Shown here: positions 9,425-35,988 of the stretch, one piece after another | Layout of the letters: each line of letters starts with the position of its first letter | How positions within the stretch are numbered: the stretch's first letter is position 1 | From: a virus | Virus record (IMG/VR): IMGVR_UViG_3300031857_000635 | Coordinates: 1 to 35,988 of that record | DNA length: 35,988 nt | Direction: 5' to 3' (one strand) | The notes under the pieces: generated by a model | The model's database searches: none | Told to the model about the DNA's origin: nothing | The model's input: only the letters and a program-made list of their open reading frames with translations | Position numbers and translations under genes: made by a program

Positions 9425-9460
9425 TCACCTTGTATAAATAAACTTACAGGGAGAAGGTGA
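9425..9460 (+). promoter_or_regulatory. Hairpin with consensus late promoter in loop, before HNH gene
   Basis: TCACCTT (9425-9431) pairs with AAGGTGA (9454-9460), which contains the Shine-Dalgarno and the first base of the start codon. TTCTCC (9418-9423) can alternatively pair with GGAGAA (9450-9455). The loop carries an exact TATAAATA at 9433-9440. This is the third start-hiding hairpin with a late-type motif in its loop in front of a homing endonuclease gene. Transcripts begun at the late motif would lack the 5' arm. Confidence 0.65.
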
Positions 9461-10755
9461 TGAACATTCACTATTTAAATCGATATAACGCATTCATTGA
9501 AAGGATCAGGCAATTAGGAAATAGAGACCTAGAATATAGCGAAAAACATCATATTAAACCTAGATGTATGGGTGGGTCTGATGAACCTGATAATCTTATC
9601 ACGTTGTCATTGAGAGAACACTTTTTATGTCATTGGATGCTGTATAAAGCATATCCAAAACATTTAGGGTTGGCTAGTGCATTTTTACAAATGGTGAACA
9701 AGAATTCTAAAACCAATAAACCACAAGACTTCAAAATTACTAGTCGAGTATATGAGCAACTCAAAATTGCAGTTTACCAAATGCTAAGTGAACACATGAC
9801 CAATCGAGTATATGTGAAAAATGCAGACAATGAAACATTCTACATGAGTAAAGAAGAATATGCAGCTCAGTCTGACATAGTTTTTCACACCAAAGGCAAA
9901 ATTTATGTGTTTGATAAACAAACCGAAAGTTGGGTTTACATTAGCTCAATTGAGTATCAAACTAATAAAGACAGATATATTACCAGACTGAGTCGAGAAT
10001 TATATGATCACAAAAAAGAATTAGATGTTAATCTTTTTCGTTATCTAGATTTAGACTCGAACGAAATTGTCAAAATGAGTAAGTATCGAGCCACTGATTT
10101 AAATGAGCATCTTGGTCGAAAAAGATATAAACAAGTCATCGAATCGAAAGTAACTTATCAAGATGAAAATGGTAATAAACACATAATTAAAGCAAAAGAT
10201 TACGATCCAAAAACTCATACCCATGTATTAAAAAACAAAGTCAACGTATGGGACCTCCAACTTGAAAAACAAAGAATTATACCTAGAACTGAATATGACT
10301 TCAATCCTGCTAGATATCTTACTTCCACTAAAGGAAAAATAATTGCGTTAGATACTAACACTGGAAAATCTTGCCTGATTGACAAAAAACTGTTTGATGG
10401 GGTAAGATATGTGGGAGTTACTAAAAATCTCACTACAGTTTTAGATAAGTCAACCGGTCAATATGTACAAATTTCAAGAGATCAAGTTCTAAACAACAAA
10501 GAACGTTACGCTGGACCTTGTGCTGGTAAGATCAATATAATCAATAAACAAACAGGGATTCGATCACAGGTCCCACAAGATCAGTTTGACAAAAATGTGC
10601 ATTTGTCGCTAGGTAACAAAAAATATCTGTTCAAATGTCAACATGTTAAGACTGGTAAAATCAAAAACATCAATATATACGAATGGCATTTGGTCCAAGA
10701 TTTGTATGTAATTTTGGATGAAAAAAAATTTTTAGAACTTAAAAATTTGCTATAA
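9460..10755 (+). CDS. HNH homing endonuclease
   Basis: A protein of 431 residues starting at ATG 9460 behind GGGAGAAGG. The N-terminal HNH nuclease is clear: EKHHIKPRCMGGSD, then DNLITLSLREHFLCHWML supplies the Asn and final His. The remaining 330 residues hold repeated units of the form (V/I)-x-D-x-x-T-G-x-x-x-x-I followed by a basic D-x-F/Y-x-x-x-x-R/K-Y segment, for example VLDKSTGQYVQISRDQ and IINKQTGIRSQVPQDQ, likely DNA-contacting modules. It separates queD and its small membrane-protein partner from queE, so it is a mobile insertion in a metabolic operon. AT-rich codon use differs from its neighbours. Confidence 0.88.
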   Translation: MNIHYLNRYNAFIERIRQLGNRDLEYSEKHHIKPRCMGGSDEPDNLITLSLREHFLCHWMLYKAYPKHLGLASAFLQMVNKNSKTNKPQDFKITSRVYEQLKIAVYQMLSEHMTNRVYVKNADNETFYMSKEEYAAQSDIVFHTKGKIYVFDKQTESWVYISSIEYQTNKDRYITRLSRELYDHKKELDVNLFRYLDLDSNEIVKMSKYRATDLNEHLGRKRYKQVIESKVTYQDENGNKHIIKAKDYDPKTHTHVLKNKVNVWDLQLEKQRIIPRTEYDFNPARYLTSTKGKIIALDTNTGKSCLIDKKLFDGVRYVGVTKNLTTVLDKSTGQYVQISRDQVLNNKERYAGPCAGKINIINKQTGIRSQVPQDQFDKNVHLSLGNKKYLFKCQHVKTGKIKNINIYEWHLVQDLYVILDEKKFLELKNLL

Positions 10756-11724: not shown

Positions 11725-12480
11725 GAAAAAAGGTTCTTATACTCATGACGAGTTCATAAAAAAGTTGCTGAAGTTAACCCTAAGATAAAAATTTTGTCCG
11801 AGTACAAAGGAGTGGAGAATAAAGTTACTGTTGAATGTCAACATCATGGAACAAATGAGATTTACGCATATCGTTTACTTAAACCAAATAGACATTGTTG
11901 TAAAAAAGGATATCACGAAGAAAAAAAGGGAAAAGTCAAAGTTACTCTTGACGATAGAAAACAAAAATATAAATCTATCTTAAAGGAATTGTGTTTTAAA
12001 GATTCTTTTTTATTAGATGATAGAAAACTACACAATATATTCTGTAAGAAGCATAATTTATATTTTAGTCAATGGATGAGTTCGTTAAATGTCGGAGTTG
12101 GATGTCCTCATTGTGGTAAAGAAAACAAACGTAATGCAGGACTAAAGATGATAAAAATTGCAAGAAAAAAGCAATTTGATGCAGGAAGAGCAAGATTCGT
12201 TTCAAAAAATGAAACAAAATGGTTAGACTCATTGGAGGTACCAGTTAGGCAAAAATGGTTAGAAGATATAAAGTATAGCGTTGATGGTTTTGATCCTGAA
12301 ACAAATACAGTATTTTTATATCATGGAAAATTTTGGCATGGATGCATTTACACTTTTGATCCAGAACTAATTCACCCTATTCTTAAAGTTAAAATGAAAG
12401 ATTTGTACGAAAAAACTATGTTGATAGAAAATCAAATTAAAAAAGCAGGTTACAATTTAGTAACAAAGTGGGGGCTATAA
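11723..12480 (+). CDS. Vsr-like (EDxHD) homing endonuclease, frameshifted near its start
   Basis: From ATG 11723 the frame reads MKKGSYTHDEFIKK and is then lost at an A6 run (11758-11763). One more A would join it to VAEVNPKIKILSEYKG and the rest of the protein to 12480. The middle holds two zinc-finger-like parts (VECQHHG ... CCKKGYH and FCKKH ... CPHCGKEN). The C-terminus is a very-short-patch-repair-like nuclease: SVDGFDPETNTVFLYHGKFWHG, then LYEKTMLIENQIKKAGYNLV. This is the pattern of Vsr-like phage homing endonucleases. It is an insertion downstream of queE, AT-rich, and possibly a dead gene or a homopolymer sequencing error. Confidence 0.7.
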
Positions 12481-12512
12481 AATATGCTAAAAATAATGAA
12501 ATGGAGTCGGTA

Positions 12513-12953
12513 ATGCCCATTCTCAGTAAATTTGCACAGATACGTTGGCCCTGGAACTCTGAGCCATTGCCTGAGCCTGGACCTCCAGCTGAAACACCGA
12601 AACCAGCCAAACCCAGGGCCAAGCGAATTCCCAAGCCCAAACCTGAACCTGCGGTGTTGAGTGCCAAAGAACAAGCCACTGCTGAAAAACGTCCTTATGT
12701 GAATGTGTTGGGTCTGGACTTTGATCCCAAAAATCCCACACTGGGGAGTTTTGAATTGGACTGGAATGAATACTTTATCAAACAACTGTTGGTAAGTGGT
12801 TATCAGGGGGAAACTGAAGAACAATTAGTGGATCAATGGTTCAGAGGTATCTGCCGGCATGTTGTAGATGAAACCTGGGAGCAGGATCAAGCCGATCCCA
12901 CCAACCGAGTGACTCGTAGAGATTTAGGTAACGGCCGAACCGAAATCGGTTGA
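12513..12953 (+). CDS. Conserved phage protein with proline-rich linker, unknown function
   Basis: A protein of 146 residues from ATG 12513, supported by GGAG 6 nt upstream. Residues about 18-50 are a Pro/Lys-rich linker (PLPEPGPPAETPKPAKPRAK). The C-terminal part (PTLGSFELDWNEYFIKQL, GYQGETEEQLVDQWFRGICRHV) resembles a conserved uncharacterised protein of T4-like cyanophages (from memory). The promoter of the exonuclease gene begins in its last codon. Confidence 0.6.
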   Translation: MPILSKFAQIRWPWNSEPLPEPGPPAETPKPAKPRAKRIPKPKPEPAVLSAKEQATAEKRPYVNVLGLDFDPKNPTLGSFELDWNEYFIKQLLVSGYQGETEEQLVDQWFRGICRHVVDETWEQDQADPTNRVTRRDLGNGRTEIG

Positions 12954-16891: not shown

Positions 16892-17404
16892 ATGCGCGAA
16901 CATCTACTGAGCCGCTGGTTTGATCCTGATCGATACAGCGGAGTATGGATTGAGGAAGGTGTGAGCGCAACCTTTGCCATGTGGAATTTCAGTGGGCAAA
17001 TGGTGGGCTACCAAAAGTACGAGCCCGGTGCACCACGTTTGCACAACAATGGCGAGCATACCCGCTATCACACTTGGTTTGGCGAGAACAAGGTGGGTGT
17101 GTGGGGTTTGGAGAGTGTGGATTGGCGGGGCGGTGATCTGTTCCTAGTAGAGGGCGTATTTGATTCTTGCCGATTATCGTGGCACGGCTTGCAGTCTATA
17201 GCAGTACTTTCAAATGACCCAAAACATTTGCGTAATTGGATTAGTGTGTTACCACACAAATTAATTGCAGTTTGCGATGGAGATTCTGCTGGTAAAAAAT
17301 TAGCCAAATACGGTAACGAAGTAATATATCTTCCAGAAAAAGAAGATGTTGGTTCATTGTCTGATGAGCAGTTTAACTTAATCTTCGGAAAATTTTTGAG
17401 ATAA
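16892..17404 (+). CDS. TOPRIM-domain protein, primase-like
   Basis: A protein of 170 residues. The N-terminal part (FAMWNFSGQMVGYQKYEPGAP) resembles the region preceding TOPRIM in DnaG-type primases. GDLFLVEGVFDSCRL carries the conserved Glu, and LIAVCDGDSAGKKLAKYG carries the D-x-D-x-A-G-K motif. It lacks a helicase domain and a zinc finger, so it is either a small phage primase or a TOPRIM subunit working with another protein. The last third of the gene is visibly more AT-rich than the start, next to an endonuclease remnant. It lies under a leaderless promoter. Confidence 0.8.
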   Translation: MREHLLSRWFDPDRYSGVWIEEGVSATFAMWNFSGQMVGYQKYEPGAPRLHNNGEHTRYHTWFGENKVGVWGLESVDWRGGDLFLVEGVFDSCRLSWHGLQSIAVLSNDPKHLRNWISVLPHKLIAVCDGDSAGKKLAKYGNEVIYLPEKEDVGSLSDEQFNLIFGKFLR

Positions 17405-17809
17405 TTTTTCTAATTTTTTCTTTTCAACTGTTGACTTTCGCTTCGCTAATGTTTCAGGAGATAACTTTCTTCCTTTTAATTTAGCAGAAATTTGATCTCT
17501 TAGTTCCTGTGAAATTTTTGGTCTCTGATAACTAGGATCTAATTTTTTGGCTCGAACAGCATTACTTCGTTTTTGGATAGTTTCTTGAGATTGCTTTCGG
17601 CTCGACGCTGCTTTACTCATTTTTTCTCGAGTCTCTTCTGAAACACCAACTTTTCCTTTGTTCCAGGGAATGTTTCCTTTTGATCCTTTGTTCCACGGAA
17701 CTCTGCCTAATCCAGACTCGCTAATCTTCTTTCGAGATTCTTCAGAATGAGAAATCTTAGTAACTTTGCTTAATTCGTACCATAATGAAAAACTCCATGA
17801 AAGGCCCAA
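17378..17809 (-). pseudogene. Remnant of a homing endonuclease (NUMOD3 repeats only)
   Basis: Read on the minus strand, the frame has HSEESRKKISESGLG, PWNKGSKGNIPWNKGK, VSEETREKMSKAASSRKQ, SQETIQKRSNAV, ISQELRDQISAKLKGRK and LSPETLAKRKS. These are NUMOD3-type DNA-binding repeats that normally form the C-terminal half of GIY-YIG or HNH homing endonucleases. There is no nuclease domain and no proper start: the upstream end runs into the gene at 17785. The 3' end overlaps the TOPRIM gene by 27 nt tail to tail. It is best read as the leftover of a decayed mobile gene, unless it is a spliced or split partner. Confidence 0.65.
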
Positions 17810-20725: not shown

Positions 20726-20775
20726 AACCTGCTGATTTTGCTGAACTTACCAGTTCTGAGATCAGCAGGTTTTCT
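20726..20775 (+). terminator. Rho-independent terminator candidate
   Basis: Perfect 11-bp stem AACCTGCTGAT (20726-20736) / ATCAGCAGGTT (20761-20771) with a 24-nt loop, followed by TTCTCTC. The long loop is unusual, but the place right after the gene fits. Confidence 0.65.
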
Positions 20776-20795
20776 CTCGAAAGTGTGTGATCAGG

Positions 20796-20824
20796 TTGAC
20801 CTTTTGGTCATCGTTTGCTATCAT
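20796..20824 (+). promoter_or_regulatory. Promoter of the GIY-YIG gene, very short leader
   Basis: TTGACC (20796-20801), 17 bp, TTTGC-TATCAT (20819-20824), then AAAAGAGTA and ATG 20834. The 9-nt gap predicts a leader of about 2-3 nt. Confidence 0.75.
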
Positions 20825-20833
20825 AAAAGAGTA

Positions 20834-21154
20834 ATGGAACAAAAAACCAGACGCCGTAAACGCTGCGACCGCTCCTACGTTATCTATCAGTTGCAAGTCA
20901 ACGACCAGATCTACATCGGAATCACTGCTCGTACCCAGAGCACGGCACTGAAGAGTGTTTGCGATCGCTGGAAGAAACACCAGAGCCGCTGCCGGAGCGA
21001 GCAAAAATCCTGGCCGCTCTACAACGCCATGCGCAAATATGGCGTGGAAGCGTTTGAATACAGCGTGGTAGAAACTCTGCGTGGTCGTGCTGCGGCCTAC
21101 GCCCGTGAACGTGAGATTATCCGTGACCTTAATCCCCAACTGAACCTGGCTTAA
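20834..21154 (+). CDS. Stand-alone GIY-YIG nuclease
   Basis: A protein of 106 residues from ATG 20834. SYVIYQLQVNDQIYIGIT gives the GIY-YIG pair as V-I-Y ... Y-I-G. The catalytic Arg is probably in VCDRWKKHQ, and the metal-binding Glu in AREREIIRDLNP. There are no C-terminal DNA-binding repeats, so it is less likely to be a homing enzyme than a phage nuclease acting on host DNA or on repair intermediates. The basic start (KTRRRKRCDR) could bind DNA. It is followed after 1 nt by the next gene. Confidence 0.8.
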   Translation: MEQKTRRRKRCDRSYVIYQLQVNDQIYIGITARTQSTALKSVCDRWKKHQSRCRSEQKSWPLYNAMRKYGVEAFEYSVVETLRGRAAAYAREREIIRDLNPQLNLA

Positions 21155-31932: not shown

Positions 31933-34900
31933 ATGAAAAATTTTTTTCTACATCTTATGTGTGTGATGGCACTGTGGTCACAGAGTGACACTTCTGCTAT
32001 CGTGGGTGTGATTCAGGACAGCGAACATGCCATTTTAGCAGGCGCCATGGTGACTGTGCAAAATGAAAAAACTGGCACCGTGAGAGAGGCAACCAGCGAC
32101 GCTGAAGGACGCTATACTTTAACCAATTTAAGTGCAGCCAATTACACCATTAAGGTAGCCGCACCAGGATTTGCTGCCATGCAACGCAGCGGAATCAAAC
32201 TGTCAGTGAGTCAGCAGATTGCTGTGAATTTTATTTTGGTCCCACAGATGATCAAAACTGAAATTGTGGTGGAAGGTGGCGACGTGGTGGCAGTAGACAC
32301 TGCCAGTGCCAAAATGGGGGTGAACGTTAGCGAACGCGAAGTGGAAAACTTGCCGCTGAACGGACGTCAGCTCAGTCAGCTGTATCTGCTGGCACCAGGT
32401 GCAAATACCGGCGGTGGTGGCAGTTATGACAACATCCGTTTTAGCGGTCGCAGCAATCAACAGAATGCTATCCGTTATGATGGTGTAGAAGGCAGTGCGA
32501 TTATTGACAGCAGCCCAGGCAATCTCAACGGGCAGATCAGCAGCTTTTTCCGCCTGCAGAGCAGCATGGAAAATGTGCAAGAATTCCGTGTGGAAAGCAA
32601 CAACTATCCGGCTGAATATGGCACAGGCACTGGTGGACAGATCACAGTGGTCACCAAAAGTGGTGGCAATCAGTTGCACGGCAGTGTGTTTGAATATCTG
32701 CGCAACAATGCACTGGATGCTCGCAACTTTTTTGATGGTGCAAAAACCAATCCACTGAGACTGAATCAGTTTGGAGCCAGCGCAGGTGGAGCCATTGTGC
32801 GAGATCGTTGGTTTTGGTTTGCGAGCAATGAAAATCTGCGTCAGCGTCAGAGCATTCCATTTAGAGAAGCTGTGCCCAGTGTGAGCGCACGAGCCAGAGC
32901 TGTGGCCAGTGTGCAGCCACTGATGAGTTTGTATCCAGTGGGCAATATTGCAACCACTGATCCCAATGCAGATGTTGTGGCGCTGGATCGCTCACAGTCT
33001 GTGGACGAAGCCAGCTTTGGATCACGCATTGACGGCAGACTAACTGAACGATTCAATGTGTACGCTCGTTTCTTCCGAGATCAGGGCCACAGTGTTCAAC
33101 CACTGGGCGTGACTGGCAACGGTATTGATGTTACCGCAGTACCGCAAAATGCAGTGTTCAACACTCAGTGGATCGTTAGCCCAACCAAAATCAATGAAGC
33201 CAAGCTGGGCATTAATGCTTACAAGACTCGTGCCTGGGGCAGAGCACCCATTGTCAACGGTTTTAATCCTGCTGATATCAGTGTAAATCTCACAGGTGGC
33301 ATTGCAATTGCAGGCATCAGCAGCCAGGGCGCAGGCACCGGCTTTGCTACTGCTGGCGGACTGGTTCGCAGCAACAGTGCAACCAATGGACGTGGTCAGC
33401 CTTATACCAATACCAGCACAGCACTGATTGATAACTTCAGCTGGATTCAGGGCAGCCACAATTTCAAAATGGGCGGAGAAGCTCGTTGGGTTCGGTTGTA
33501 CACTGATCGCCTGGGTGGCACAACCTACAGTTTTGCCAACGTAGAGGATTTGGTCAATAATCGTCCACTACAGGTGCAATTTTTAGGTGATGTGAGTGCG
33601 CCCAGTCCGTTCAATCGCAACGCAATCGGTGAGCGTGAACTCAATCAACACTTTTTGATTGGATATGTGCAGGACGAATGGAAGTTGCGTGACAACATCA
33701 CTGTGAACTATGGCATGCGATATGAATACTACAGTGTGTTTAAAGAAAAGCGTAACCTAGCTGTGGCTTGGAATCCAGTCACTGGTCAGCTGATGGATCC
33801 GGCGCTGCCTATTTATCGTAGCAGCCGCACTAACTTTGGTCCCAGGCTTAGTTCGACTTGGAGTCCGCGTCGATGGCAAGGCAAAACTGTGGTTCGGGTG
33901 GGATCGGGGATCTATTATGGTCCGGGTCAGCCGGAAGATCTAATCCAGCCGTTTGAATCAGATCGTGTGAGCAGCACACTAACTGGAGTTGCTTATCCCA
34001 TTAACACACAAGCAATTGTGGCCAACTACAACATCAACAGTCCCACACTTAAATTCCAGCCGCGTGCGTATGATCCTGGCTATCGTGTGCCGGAAACGGT
34101 GTACAGCTATACTACCAGCGTTCAGCAGCAGATCAGAAGCAACACTGTGACTGTGGCATATGTGGGCGGTTTGGGTCGCAACTTGTTTATTCGCACACTG
34201 GGCAACTTGATTACCAACGTGGGCACCAATGTCACAACTGGCGCGGCTGTGGTAACTCGACAGTTTGGCGATCGTTGGGCTGAAGTTGACGTAAAAACCA
34301 GTGGTGGCAATGATCACTACAATGCTCTGCAAGCCACACTGAATCGAAAAACTCGCAATGGTTTTAATTACGGTGTGAGCTATACTTGGGGACGTTCAAT
34401 CGGCAGCAGTGGTGGGTCAAACGAAACAGTCACGGTGGCCAATCCCTATAACTGGCGATATGATTATGGCAACAATGCGGCTGATATTCGTCACAATCTC
34501 AACACTGTGATGTTATACGAAGGTTCTCGTGGTTTACTAAAGAATTGGCAAGTGGGTAGTATTATTAATACTCGCACTGGATTGCCATTGGATCCACTTA
34601 TTGTGCGAAATGACGTAATCTACAAAGATCAGCGCACTGGTATGTACTACAACAATCCGGTAATAGAAAACGGAGTGGTACACAGTGTGGCTGTAGTAAA
34701 CGTACCCGGTGGCGGACAGAGTCGACAGATTCGCCGTCCGGACTACGTGGCAGGTGTCAGCCCTTATGTAAAGAGCAATGGCACATTGTACTTGAACAGT
34801 GCTGCGTTTAGCACTCCACTGCCAGGCACATTCGGCAACGCTTCCCGATACAGTTTGCGTGGTCCGGCTCTTTTCCAAACTGATTTCACCGTGCAGAGAA

Positions 34901-35166
34901 AGATTCGAATTACTGAACATTTTCAACTAACTGCTCGAGCTGAAGTTTATAACTTGTTCAACCGTGCTAACTTTGCCAATCCGCCTGCTCAATTGCCCAA
35001 CGCAATTCCCAGCAAGCCCGGGCAGGCCAACACAGTTCAGCCTGGACAGGCATTCGGTTCTAGCACTCAGGGAGCAACATTTGGTGTAATCAACAGCACA
35101 CTGGATCGCACAGTGGGCTTGGGAACCAGTCGACAGATTCAATTGAGTTTGCGACTGAGCTTCTAA
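31933..35166 (+). CDS. Full-length TonB-receptor-like outer-membrane protein (Oar type)
   Basis: A protein of 1077 residues. Signal peptide at 1-17 (KNFFLHLMCVMALWSQS). A CarboxypepD_reg domain covers about 22-105 (TSAIVGVIQDSEHAILAGAM, then TSDAEGRYTLTNLSA). A plug domain follows, with VENLPLNGRQLSQLYLLAPG, IRFSGRSNQQNAIRYDGVEG and YPAEYGTGTGGQITVVTKSG. The remainder is a beta-barrel ending in LSLRLSF, whose terminal Phe is the outer-membrane assembly signal. This architecture is greatly expanded in Acidobacteriota. No TonB box was recognised. It is intact and preceded by GAGGA. In a phage it could block superinfection, act as decoy receptor or bring in nutrients. Confidence 0.85.
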   Translation: MKNFFLHLMCVMALWSQSDTSAIVGVIQDSEHAILAGAMVTVQNEKTGTVREATSDAEGRYTLTNLSAANYTIKVAAPGFAAMQRSGIKLSVSQQIAVNFILVPQMIKTEIVVEGGDVVAVDTASAKMGVNVSEREVENLPLNGRQLSQLYLLAPGANTGGGGSYDNIRFSGRSNQQNAIRYDGVEGSAIIDSSPGNLNGQISSFFRLQSSMENVQEFRVESNNYPAEYGTGTGGQITVVTKSGGNQLHGSVFEYLRNNALDARNFFDGAKTNPLRLNQFGASAGGAIVRDRWFWFASNENLRQRQSIPFREAVPSVSARARAVASVQPLMSLYPVGNIATTDPNADVVALDRSQSVDEASFGSRIDGRLTERFNVYARFFRDQGHSVQPLGVTGNGIDVTAVPQNAVFNTQWIVSPTKINEAKLGINAYKTRAWGRAPIVNGFNPADISVNLTGGIAIAGISSQGAGTGFATAGGLVRSNSATNGRGQPYTNTSTALIDNFSWIQGSHNFKMGGEARWVRLYTDRLGGTTYSFANVEDLVNNRPLQVQFLGDVSAPSPFNRNAIGERELNQHFLIGYVQDEWKLRDNITVNYGMRYEYYSVFKEKRNLAVAWNPVTGQLMDPALPIYRSSRTNFGPRLSSTWSPRRWQGKTVVRVGSGIYYGPGQPEDLIQPFESDRVSSTLTGVAYPINTQAIVANYNINSPTLKFQPRAYDPGYRVPETVYSYTTSVQQQIRSNTVTVAYVGGLGRNLFIRTLGNLITNVGTNVTTGAAVVTRQFGDRWAEVDVKTSGGNDHYNALQATLNRKTRNGFNYGVSYTWGRSIGSSGGSNETVTVANPYNWRYDYGNNAADIRHNLNTVMLYEGSRGLLKNWQVGSIINTRTGLPLDPLIVRNDVIYKDQRTGMYYNNPVIENGVVHSVAVVNVPGGGQSRQIRRPDYVAGVSPYVKSNGTLYLNSAAFSTPLPGTFGNASRYSLRGPALFQTDFTVQRKIRITEHFQLTARAEVYNLFNRANFANPPAQLPNAIPSKPGQANTVQPGQAFGSSTQGATFGVINSTLDRTVGLGTSRQIQLSLRLSF

Positions 35167-35214: not shown

Positions 35215-35243
35215 TTGATATCCGCTGCTTAATTAGCTATAAT
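35215..35243 (+). promoter_or_regulatory. Promoter for the DUF2061 gene and probably the tmRNA
   Basis: TTGATA (35215-35220), 17 bp, AGC-TATAAT (35238-35243). ATG 35254 is 10 nt further on, so the leader is about 4 nt. No other promoter is evident before the tmRNA. Confidence 0.75.
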
Positions 35244-35253
35244 AGTATTATAC

Positions 35254-35433
35254 ATGGAACAGCATAGACGAACATTAGCAAGATCAGCCAGCTGGCGAGT
35301 TACAGCAACCATTGTTACTGCTGTGTGGACTGGGATTGAATCAGCCATATGGATGAATTTGGCAATGACCATTGTTCACTATGCACATGAAAGAATTTGG
35401 TTGAAGATTCAGTGGGGTAAGCAGAATCAATAA
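35254..35433 (+). CDS. DUF2061-family membrane protein
   Basis: A protein of 59 residues. RTLARSASWRVTATIVTAVW, TGIESAIWMNLAMTIVHYA and HERIWLKIQWG match the short DUF2061 family: S-W-R at the start, a T-G-turn between two membrane helices, and H-E-R-x-W before the C-terminus. The function of the family is not established. It lies between a strong promoter and the tmRNA gene and is probably the first cistron of that transcript. Confidence 0.8.
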   Translation: MEQHRRTLARSASWRVTATIVTAVWTGIESAIWMNLAMTIVHYAHERIWLKIQWGKQNQ

Positions 35434-35455
35434 ATAAGTTTGATAGGTGATGATC

Positions 35456-35731
35456 TGGATTGAAGGCATTTTGGACGAGAGTTCGAATCTCTCCACCTCC
35501 CAGAATCATTTGAAAAAGTGATTCTGGGTGGGGGTGCAATTGGTTTCGACAGGATGAGCTAGAAAAGGGGAATCTATCCGGCAGACGACTACCGTAACAG
35601 CGTGAACTAAGAAATGCCAACAATACTTGGTATGATCTCGGTGAATACAGCTTCGAAGGTAACTTGGAAGCTGGGCTAGCAGTAGCCTAACCGAATGAGT
35701 TAGATGAGCCCTTGGAAACAGAATGCTCATC
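35456..35731 (+). ncRNA. ssrA: tmRNA with circularly permuted gene order
   Basis: The acceptor part comes first: T stem GAGAG/CTCTC (35477-35481, 35489-35493) with loop TTCGAAT, and the 3' acceptor strand CACCTCC (35494-35500). CCA is not encoded. A 29-nt spacer folds into a hairpin (CAGAATCA/TGATTCTG). Then comes the 5' acceptor strand GGGGGTG (35530-35536), able to pair over 7 bp with CACCTCC, and the D-like TTGGTTTCGACAGG typical of tmRNA. The tag frame runs from GCC 35616 to TAA 35688: 24 codons, beginning ANNTWYDL and ending AGLAVA. A 3' hairpin GATGAGC/GCTCATC closes the coding piece, and no second T arm follows. Outer ends are approximate. Confidence 0.85.
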
Positions 35732-35988
35732 AGGCAGAAGCTTTGCTTCTGCCTTTTTTCTTTGCCATCTTAATTTAGCAGATTCGCTCATTTTTCTTCG
35801 CACTTCTTCAGTAACAGGATGACCAAGTTGTGATTGACGTTGTTTTTCTCTATACTCAGCTGATCTAGGATTCTTTCTTTTTTTGCCTTTAAGAATTTTG
35901 CTTAAATTATTCTTACGATCCTCACTTAGAGGTCCTCGTTTTTTTGAAGGTACGGACCTAGGTCCTCGTTTTGTACCAAATGCTTTTG
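35687..35988 (-). CDS. NUMOD3-type DNA-binding protein, probable homing endonuclease C-terminus, cut by window edge
   Basis: The minus-strand frame is open from the window edge to a TAG at 35689-35687. It reads basic repeats (PLSEDRKNNLSKILKGKKRK, then RSAEYREKQRQSQLGHPV and TEEVRRKMSESAKLRWQRKK), the NUMOD3 style of homing endonucleases. The last 22 codons run through the tmRNA terminator and the 3' end of the tmRNA, ending in SSNSFG, so its own tail was probably lost or replaced at insertion. A nuclease domain, if any, lies beyond the window. Confidence 0.65.
   Translation of the reverse strand, partial: KAFGTKRGPRSVPSKKRGPLSEDRKNNLSKILKGKKRKNPRSAEYREKQRQSQLGHPVTEEVRRKMSESAKLRWQRKKAEAKLLPDEHSVSKGSSNSFG
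35732..35759 (+). terminator. Terminator of the tmRNA
   Basis: AGGCAGAAGC / GCTTCTGCCT stem (about 35732-35741 and 35745-35754) with a TTT loop, followed by six T. It lies right after the coding piece. The opposite strand reads it as part of a NUMOD3 protein. Confidence 0.9.

Follow-up and report, generated by a model that had tools for sequence, protein, structure and literature searches.

A circularly permuted tmRNA gene in a large-phage genome fragment and the apparent replacement of its tRNA-like domain in a close relative

A permuted tmRNA gene of the beta-like type

The analysis conducted here confirms that the right end of a 35,988-base virus record (IMGVR_UViG_3300031857_000635, analysed over its whole length and referred to below as the window) carries a genuine circularly permuted, or two-piece, tmRNA gene. 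We consider it highly probable that this is a phage-encoded member of the tmRNA_permuted family, closest to the betaproteobacterial subtype, and that it is transcribed, processed and used in ribosome rescue along the lines set out below. The basis for this reading is the gene order, covariance-model membership, compensatory pairing, a conserved tag, and a promoter and terminator recognized by consensus. Permuted tmRNA genes are already known and common in phages, and the unusual part is the apparently replaced tRNA-like half of the gene in a closely related contig, L003.

The Rfam model of permuted tmRNAs (RF04321, curated cut-off 47 bits) matches over the full length of the model at 35442-35690 of the window, with a score of 95.1 bits (E 2e-17), and the tag start at 35616 predicted by an earlier note on this DNA lies inside the match. 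Among the older subtype models, the top score is that of beta_tmRNA (RF01850), at 86.2 bits for a curated cut-off of 84 bits. A standard tmRNA (RF00023), an outcome that the earlier note had said would refute its reading, was rejected: the 5' acceptor strand does not come first, the order is reversed and the permuted models outscore the standard one. The note's placement of the T arm and 3' acceptor strand upstream of the 5' acceptor strand was recovered at the same coordinates (Table 1); the 7-bp acceptor pairing that it drew across the permuted order holds in all seven positions, G3·U70 included, and the hairpin that it saw in the spacer is present, with an 8-bp stem. As for the extent it gave to the gene (35456-35759), the position stands and the start does not, since the 5' strand of P2 lies upstream of 35456 and pairs with the 3' strand, which sets the beginning of the gene at about 35438.

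Table 1. Features of the tmRNA locus in the window
Feature	Position	Strand	Basis or remark
Sigma70-like promoter TTGATA-17-TATAAT	35215-35243	+	11/12 consensus matches
Small membrane-protein-like ORF, 59 aa, between promoter and tmRNA	35254-35433	+	DUF2061 resemblance weak, below cut-off
Permuted tmRNA gene (precursor), up to terminator	35438-35754	+	Covariance model; exact RNA ends predicted
P2 5' strand GATAG (partner 35574-35578)	35442-35446	+	Covariation in 3/5 pairs
T arm GAGAG TTCGAAT CTCTC (stem 35477-35481/35489-35493)	35477-35493	+	Covariance model, pairing test
3' acceptor strand CACCTCC, including T70 of G3·U70	35494-35500	+	Covariance model, pairing test
Intervening segment, 29 nt, with 8-bp hairpin 35501-35508/35519-35526 (CAGAATCA/TGATTCTG)	35501-35529	+	
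5' acceptor strand GGGGGTG	35530-35536	+	7/7 pairing; predicted RNase P cleavage before 35530
D-loop-equivalent motif TGGTTTCGAC	35541-35550	+	Sequence and covariance model
P2 3' strand CTATC	35574-35578	+	Pairing test
Tag reading frame ANNTWYDLGEYSFEGNLEAGLAVA, 24 codons (35616-35687), stop TAA (35688-35690)	35616-35690	+	
GIY-YIG/NUMOD3-like homing endonuclease gene, C-terminal part	35687-35986	-	Cut by contig end
3' hairpin GATGAGC/GCTCATC	35703-35731	+	Conserved in L002 and L003
Intrinsic terminator, 10-bp stem then T-run	35732-35754	+	

Conservation of the structure and the tag

Three related phage contigs carry the gene as well: L003, which is 99.7% identical to the window over 11.5 kb, L002, whose outer-membrane protein gene product is 85% identical to that of the window, and, at a greater distance, the T4-like contig L120. 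Their RF04321 scores are 77.2, 104.7 and 94.1 bits, respectively. With the beta_tmRNA model, L120 scores 102.5 bits, and L002 (78 bits) and L003 (48.1 bits) fall below the cut-off that the window gene passes. The 7-bp acceptor stem with G3·U70 is kept in all four related genes. When the four genes are aligned, 92% of cells are paired in the named structure, compared with 36-53% in slid versions of it; 12 of the 28 pairs of the named structure are changed on both sides, a count reached by none of 500 shuffles, and this covariation, coming from only four related sequences, is to be read as support and not as a probability. Cofold energies showed no difference from those of shuffles. In L002, the intervening segment (91 nt, within 12098-12190) contains a second T-arm-like hairpin, GTGGGTTCGATCCCCAC.

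The resume codon and the tag frame with its stop, present at 35616-35690, are homologous in the relatives, and the frame encloses a hairpin (35648-35654/35667-35673). The tag of the window is homologous to those of L002 (ANSNEWYNLGEYSFETEAGLAVA) and L003 (ANSNEWYDLGEYSFEGNLEAGLAVA), and all three phages conserve the AVA end. The earlier description of the tag as 24 codons ending in AVA was accurate. From this ending the earlier note proposed that tagged proteins may be handled differently from host-tagged ones; other phage tags end in VA too. This conservation also bears on whether the gene is a neutral passenger that the phage took from a bacterium. Phages do take up tmRNA genes, and the best subtype model is a betaproteobacterial one; nevertheless, phages that have diverged from one another still carry related genes, with compensatory changes and tags that are conserved, and we hold a passenger origin to be very unlikely.

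Proposed expression and function

On the reading that we favour, the tmRNA would be co-transcribed with the small membrane-protein-like gene from the sigma70-like promoter, and the transcript would end at the intrinsic terminator. A promoter with identical 17-nt spacing and 11/12 matches occupies the equivalent place in L002, and the 59-aa ORF is kept in both L002 and L003. Following established tmRNA biology, host RNase P and 3' nucleases would remove the intervening segment and yield two pieces, one on the acceptor side and one resembling mRNA, presumably joined through the acceptor stem and P2. The host CCA-adding enzyme would supply the CCA, and host AlaRS would charge the molecule with alanine by way of G3·U70. 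During infection, host SmpB would bring the tmRNA to ribosomes stalled on broken mRNA, and these would translate the ANNTWYDLGEYSFEGNLEAGLAVA tag, be released and stay available to the phage. No SmpB gene was found in the three contigs searched, all of which are fragments.

Alternatively, a divergent phage tmRNA might not rescue ribosomes but interfere with the host, by competing with the host tmRNA for SmpB or AlaRS. The tRNA-like domain is indeed divergent, and apparently replaced in L003, and there is a precedent in the tag-less tmRNA of mycobacteriophage DS6A, cited in PMC11915505 as an inhibitor of the endogenous tmRNA. Interference alone, however, would have no need of a tag frame and stop, which are conserved in three phages, and we give this role as little credence as a passenger origin.

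Missing CCA and discriminator base

The rescue reading must also accommodate an anomaly at the 3' end of the acceptor. The intervening segment begins with CAGA, so that no CCA is encoded and the discriminator position 73 is a C (35501). Among the 50 phage permuted tmRNAs listed in this work, this C73 is the sole discriminator other than A (A in 49/50); A73 is the usual base, though it does not strictly define a permuted tmRNA. Judging from these bases, charging could be impaired, and the copy in the window might be a decaying one in which a deletion took the ACC after the acceptor and left C73, yielding an RNA that is transcribed and poorly charged. Besides the uniqueness of C73 among those 50, this would agree with the ACCA retained by the L002 gene and with the behaviour of ARAGORN, which in its default mode misses the window gene, plausibly for want of an encoded ACCA end, and reports the L002 gene as a tmRNA of the permuted type whose tag, ANSNEWYNLGEYSFETEAGLAVA, is related to that of the window. 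On the other hand, the window retains an intact acceptor, T loop, TGGTTTCGAC motif, tag frame, promoter and terminator, and 23 of the 50 listed phage genes likewise lack an encoded CCA (27 have it). Hence, decay of this copy appears improbable, if somewhat less so than the two alternatives above.

Comparison with known systems and the question of the host

With the RF04321 and RF01850 families the window gene shares the permuted order, the 7-bp acceptor with G3·U70, the T loop, P2, the resume region and the tag; it departs from them in the unencoded CCA, C73 and a 24-residue tag ending in AVA. Methylophilales phage Melnitz and related marine phages (PMC9004378) likewise carry a complete permuted tmRNA behind a sigma70-type promoter, but theirs is of the alphaproteobacterial type and comes with a glutamine riboswitch, whereas the window gene is beta-like and Rfam found no riboswitch here. 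The annotated tmRNA of the crAss-like phage cr130_1 (NC_055901) is read as permuted by RF04321 (54.4 bits); compared with the window gene, its D-loop region has diverged much further and its intervening segment is longer. Sinorhizobium jumbo phage Phosso (PV764938), a large phage sharing an AAA ATPase gene with the window, gives 113.3 bits with RF04321; its gene, unannotated in the record, is much longer (603-bp match) and belongs to a phage of an alphaproteobacterial host. By eye, the intervening segment of the crAss-like phage tmRNA (L142, 1520-1700) appears to contain a tRNA-like sequence, an arrangement for which the tmRNA database paper (PMC11915505) has one case, in a nominally archaeal genome.

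Of 133 unique tmRNA structures from phages in a published set, 53 were of the two-piece type (PMC9004378). Our scan of viral contigs returned at least 119 stretches, and together with the other loci of this analysis it provides at least 50 distinct permuted tmRNAs under strict criteria; G3·U70 is present in 50/50 of those listed. The earlier note had argued that, in a phage of an acidobacterium, such a gene must either have been acquired elsewhere or mark an unrecognised lineage. Permuted tmRNAs are so frequent in phages, a crAss-like phage included, that no unrecognised bacterial lineage is implied. CrAss-like phages infect Bacteroidota, and the single Bacteroidota genome used as a control has no RF04321 match; a phage can thus carry a permuted tmRNA that its host lineage lacks, and since phage and host lineage can differ the proposed dichotomy does not follow.

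The sole hint of an acidobacterial host, suggestive only, comes from the outer-membrane protein gene of the window, whose widest match is a remote one to a Granulicella plasmid (83% coverage, 25% identity). The product of this gene (31933-35166), 1077 aa long, is an outer-membrane beta-barrel protein that includes a carboxypeptidase-regulatory domain (PF25183, E 1e-129). It is of a TonB-receptor-like type seldom met in phage records, where one partial match was obtained, and its conservation in L002 reaches 85%. The window is otherwise of a large-phage type, with queuosine genes, thymidylate synthase, DHFR and a T4-type RNA ligase, and the nearest relatives of its AAA ATPase come from phages of 284-490 kb. 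A search of viral contigs for the exact pattern of the window's tRNA-like domain gave no match. Blastn of the window and L002 genes against phage records returned only short T-arm/acceptor matches, and of the L003 gene, nothing. A single match of the conserved mRNA-part pattern among genome contigs, in Brevibacterium, was dismissed as chance, as that genome has no RF04321 match.

Probable replacement of the tRNA-like domain in L003

L003 and the window are 99.7% identical up to position 35418, where an 83-aa ORF is inserted in L003. Beyond this ORF, the P2 region is shared and the mRNA part is 98% identical, but the tRNA-like domain is only 64% identical. The tRNA-like domain of L002, although that contig is far less related to the window overall, is 81% identical to the window domain, and the simplest explanation is therefore that the domain was replaced in L003. 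The acceptor of the L003 domain is complete (GGGCCTG/CAGGTCC, with G3·U70 and A73), and both the T loop (TGCGAT) and the D region are altered. No donor was found among the other viral contigs searched.

The gene lying antisense and directly downstream of the window tmRNA encodes a putative homing endonuclease, with GIY-YIG motifs assigned by eye. Its full-length homologue in L003 (11995-12699) has two weak NUMOD3 stretches and lies (region 11995-12741) between two 42-nt copies (98% identical) of the tmRNA 3' end. This duplication is an observation on L003, as the window stops inside the endonuclease gene, before any second copy; its arrangement suggests an insertion at the tmRNA gene that duplicated the 3' end, and such an insertion signature could account for local gene conversion. 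Further homing-endonuclease-like ORFs (SegE/GIY-YIG, HNH and NUMOD3 types, some below cut-off) lie in the window at 1913-2764, 9457-10755, 17378-17809 and 20738-21154. Here we put forward, tentatively and at somewhat less than even odds, that in this phage group the tRNA-like domain is swapped as a unit and the mRNA-like part retained, possibly driven by the adjacent endonuclease and possibly serving to tune the RNA to different hosts or to let it escape factors directed at the canonical domain.

The gene described here adds a beta-like two-piece tmRNA to a large-phage group. Default ARAGORN misses two of the three copies in this group, and those phage tmRNAs whose genes lack the CCA are therefore probably under-counted. 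The window and L003, otherwise 99.7% identical over 11.5 kb, constitute a natural experiment in which a shared tag part is combined with two very different tRNA-like domains, and this pair makes selection on the tRNA-like domain testable.
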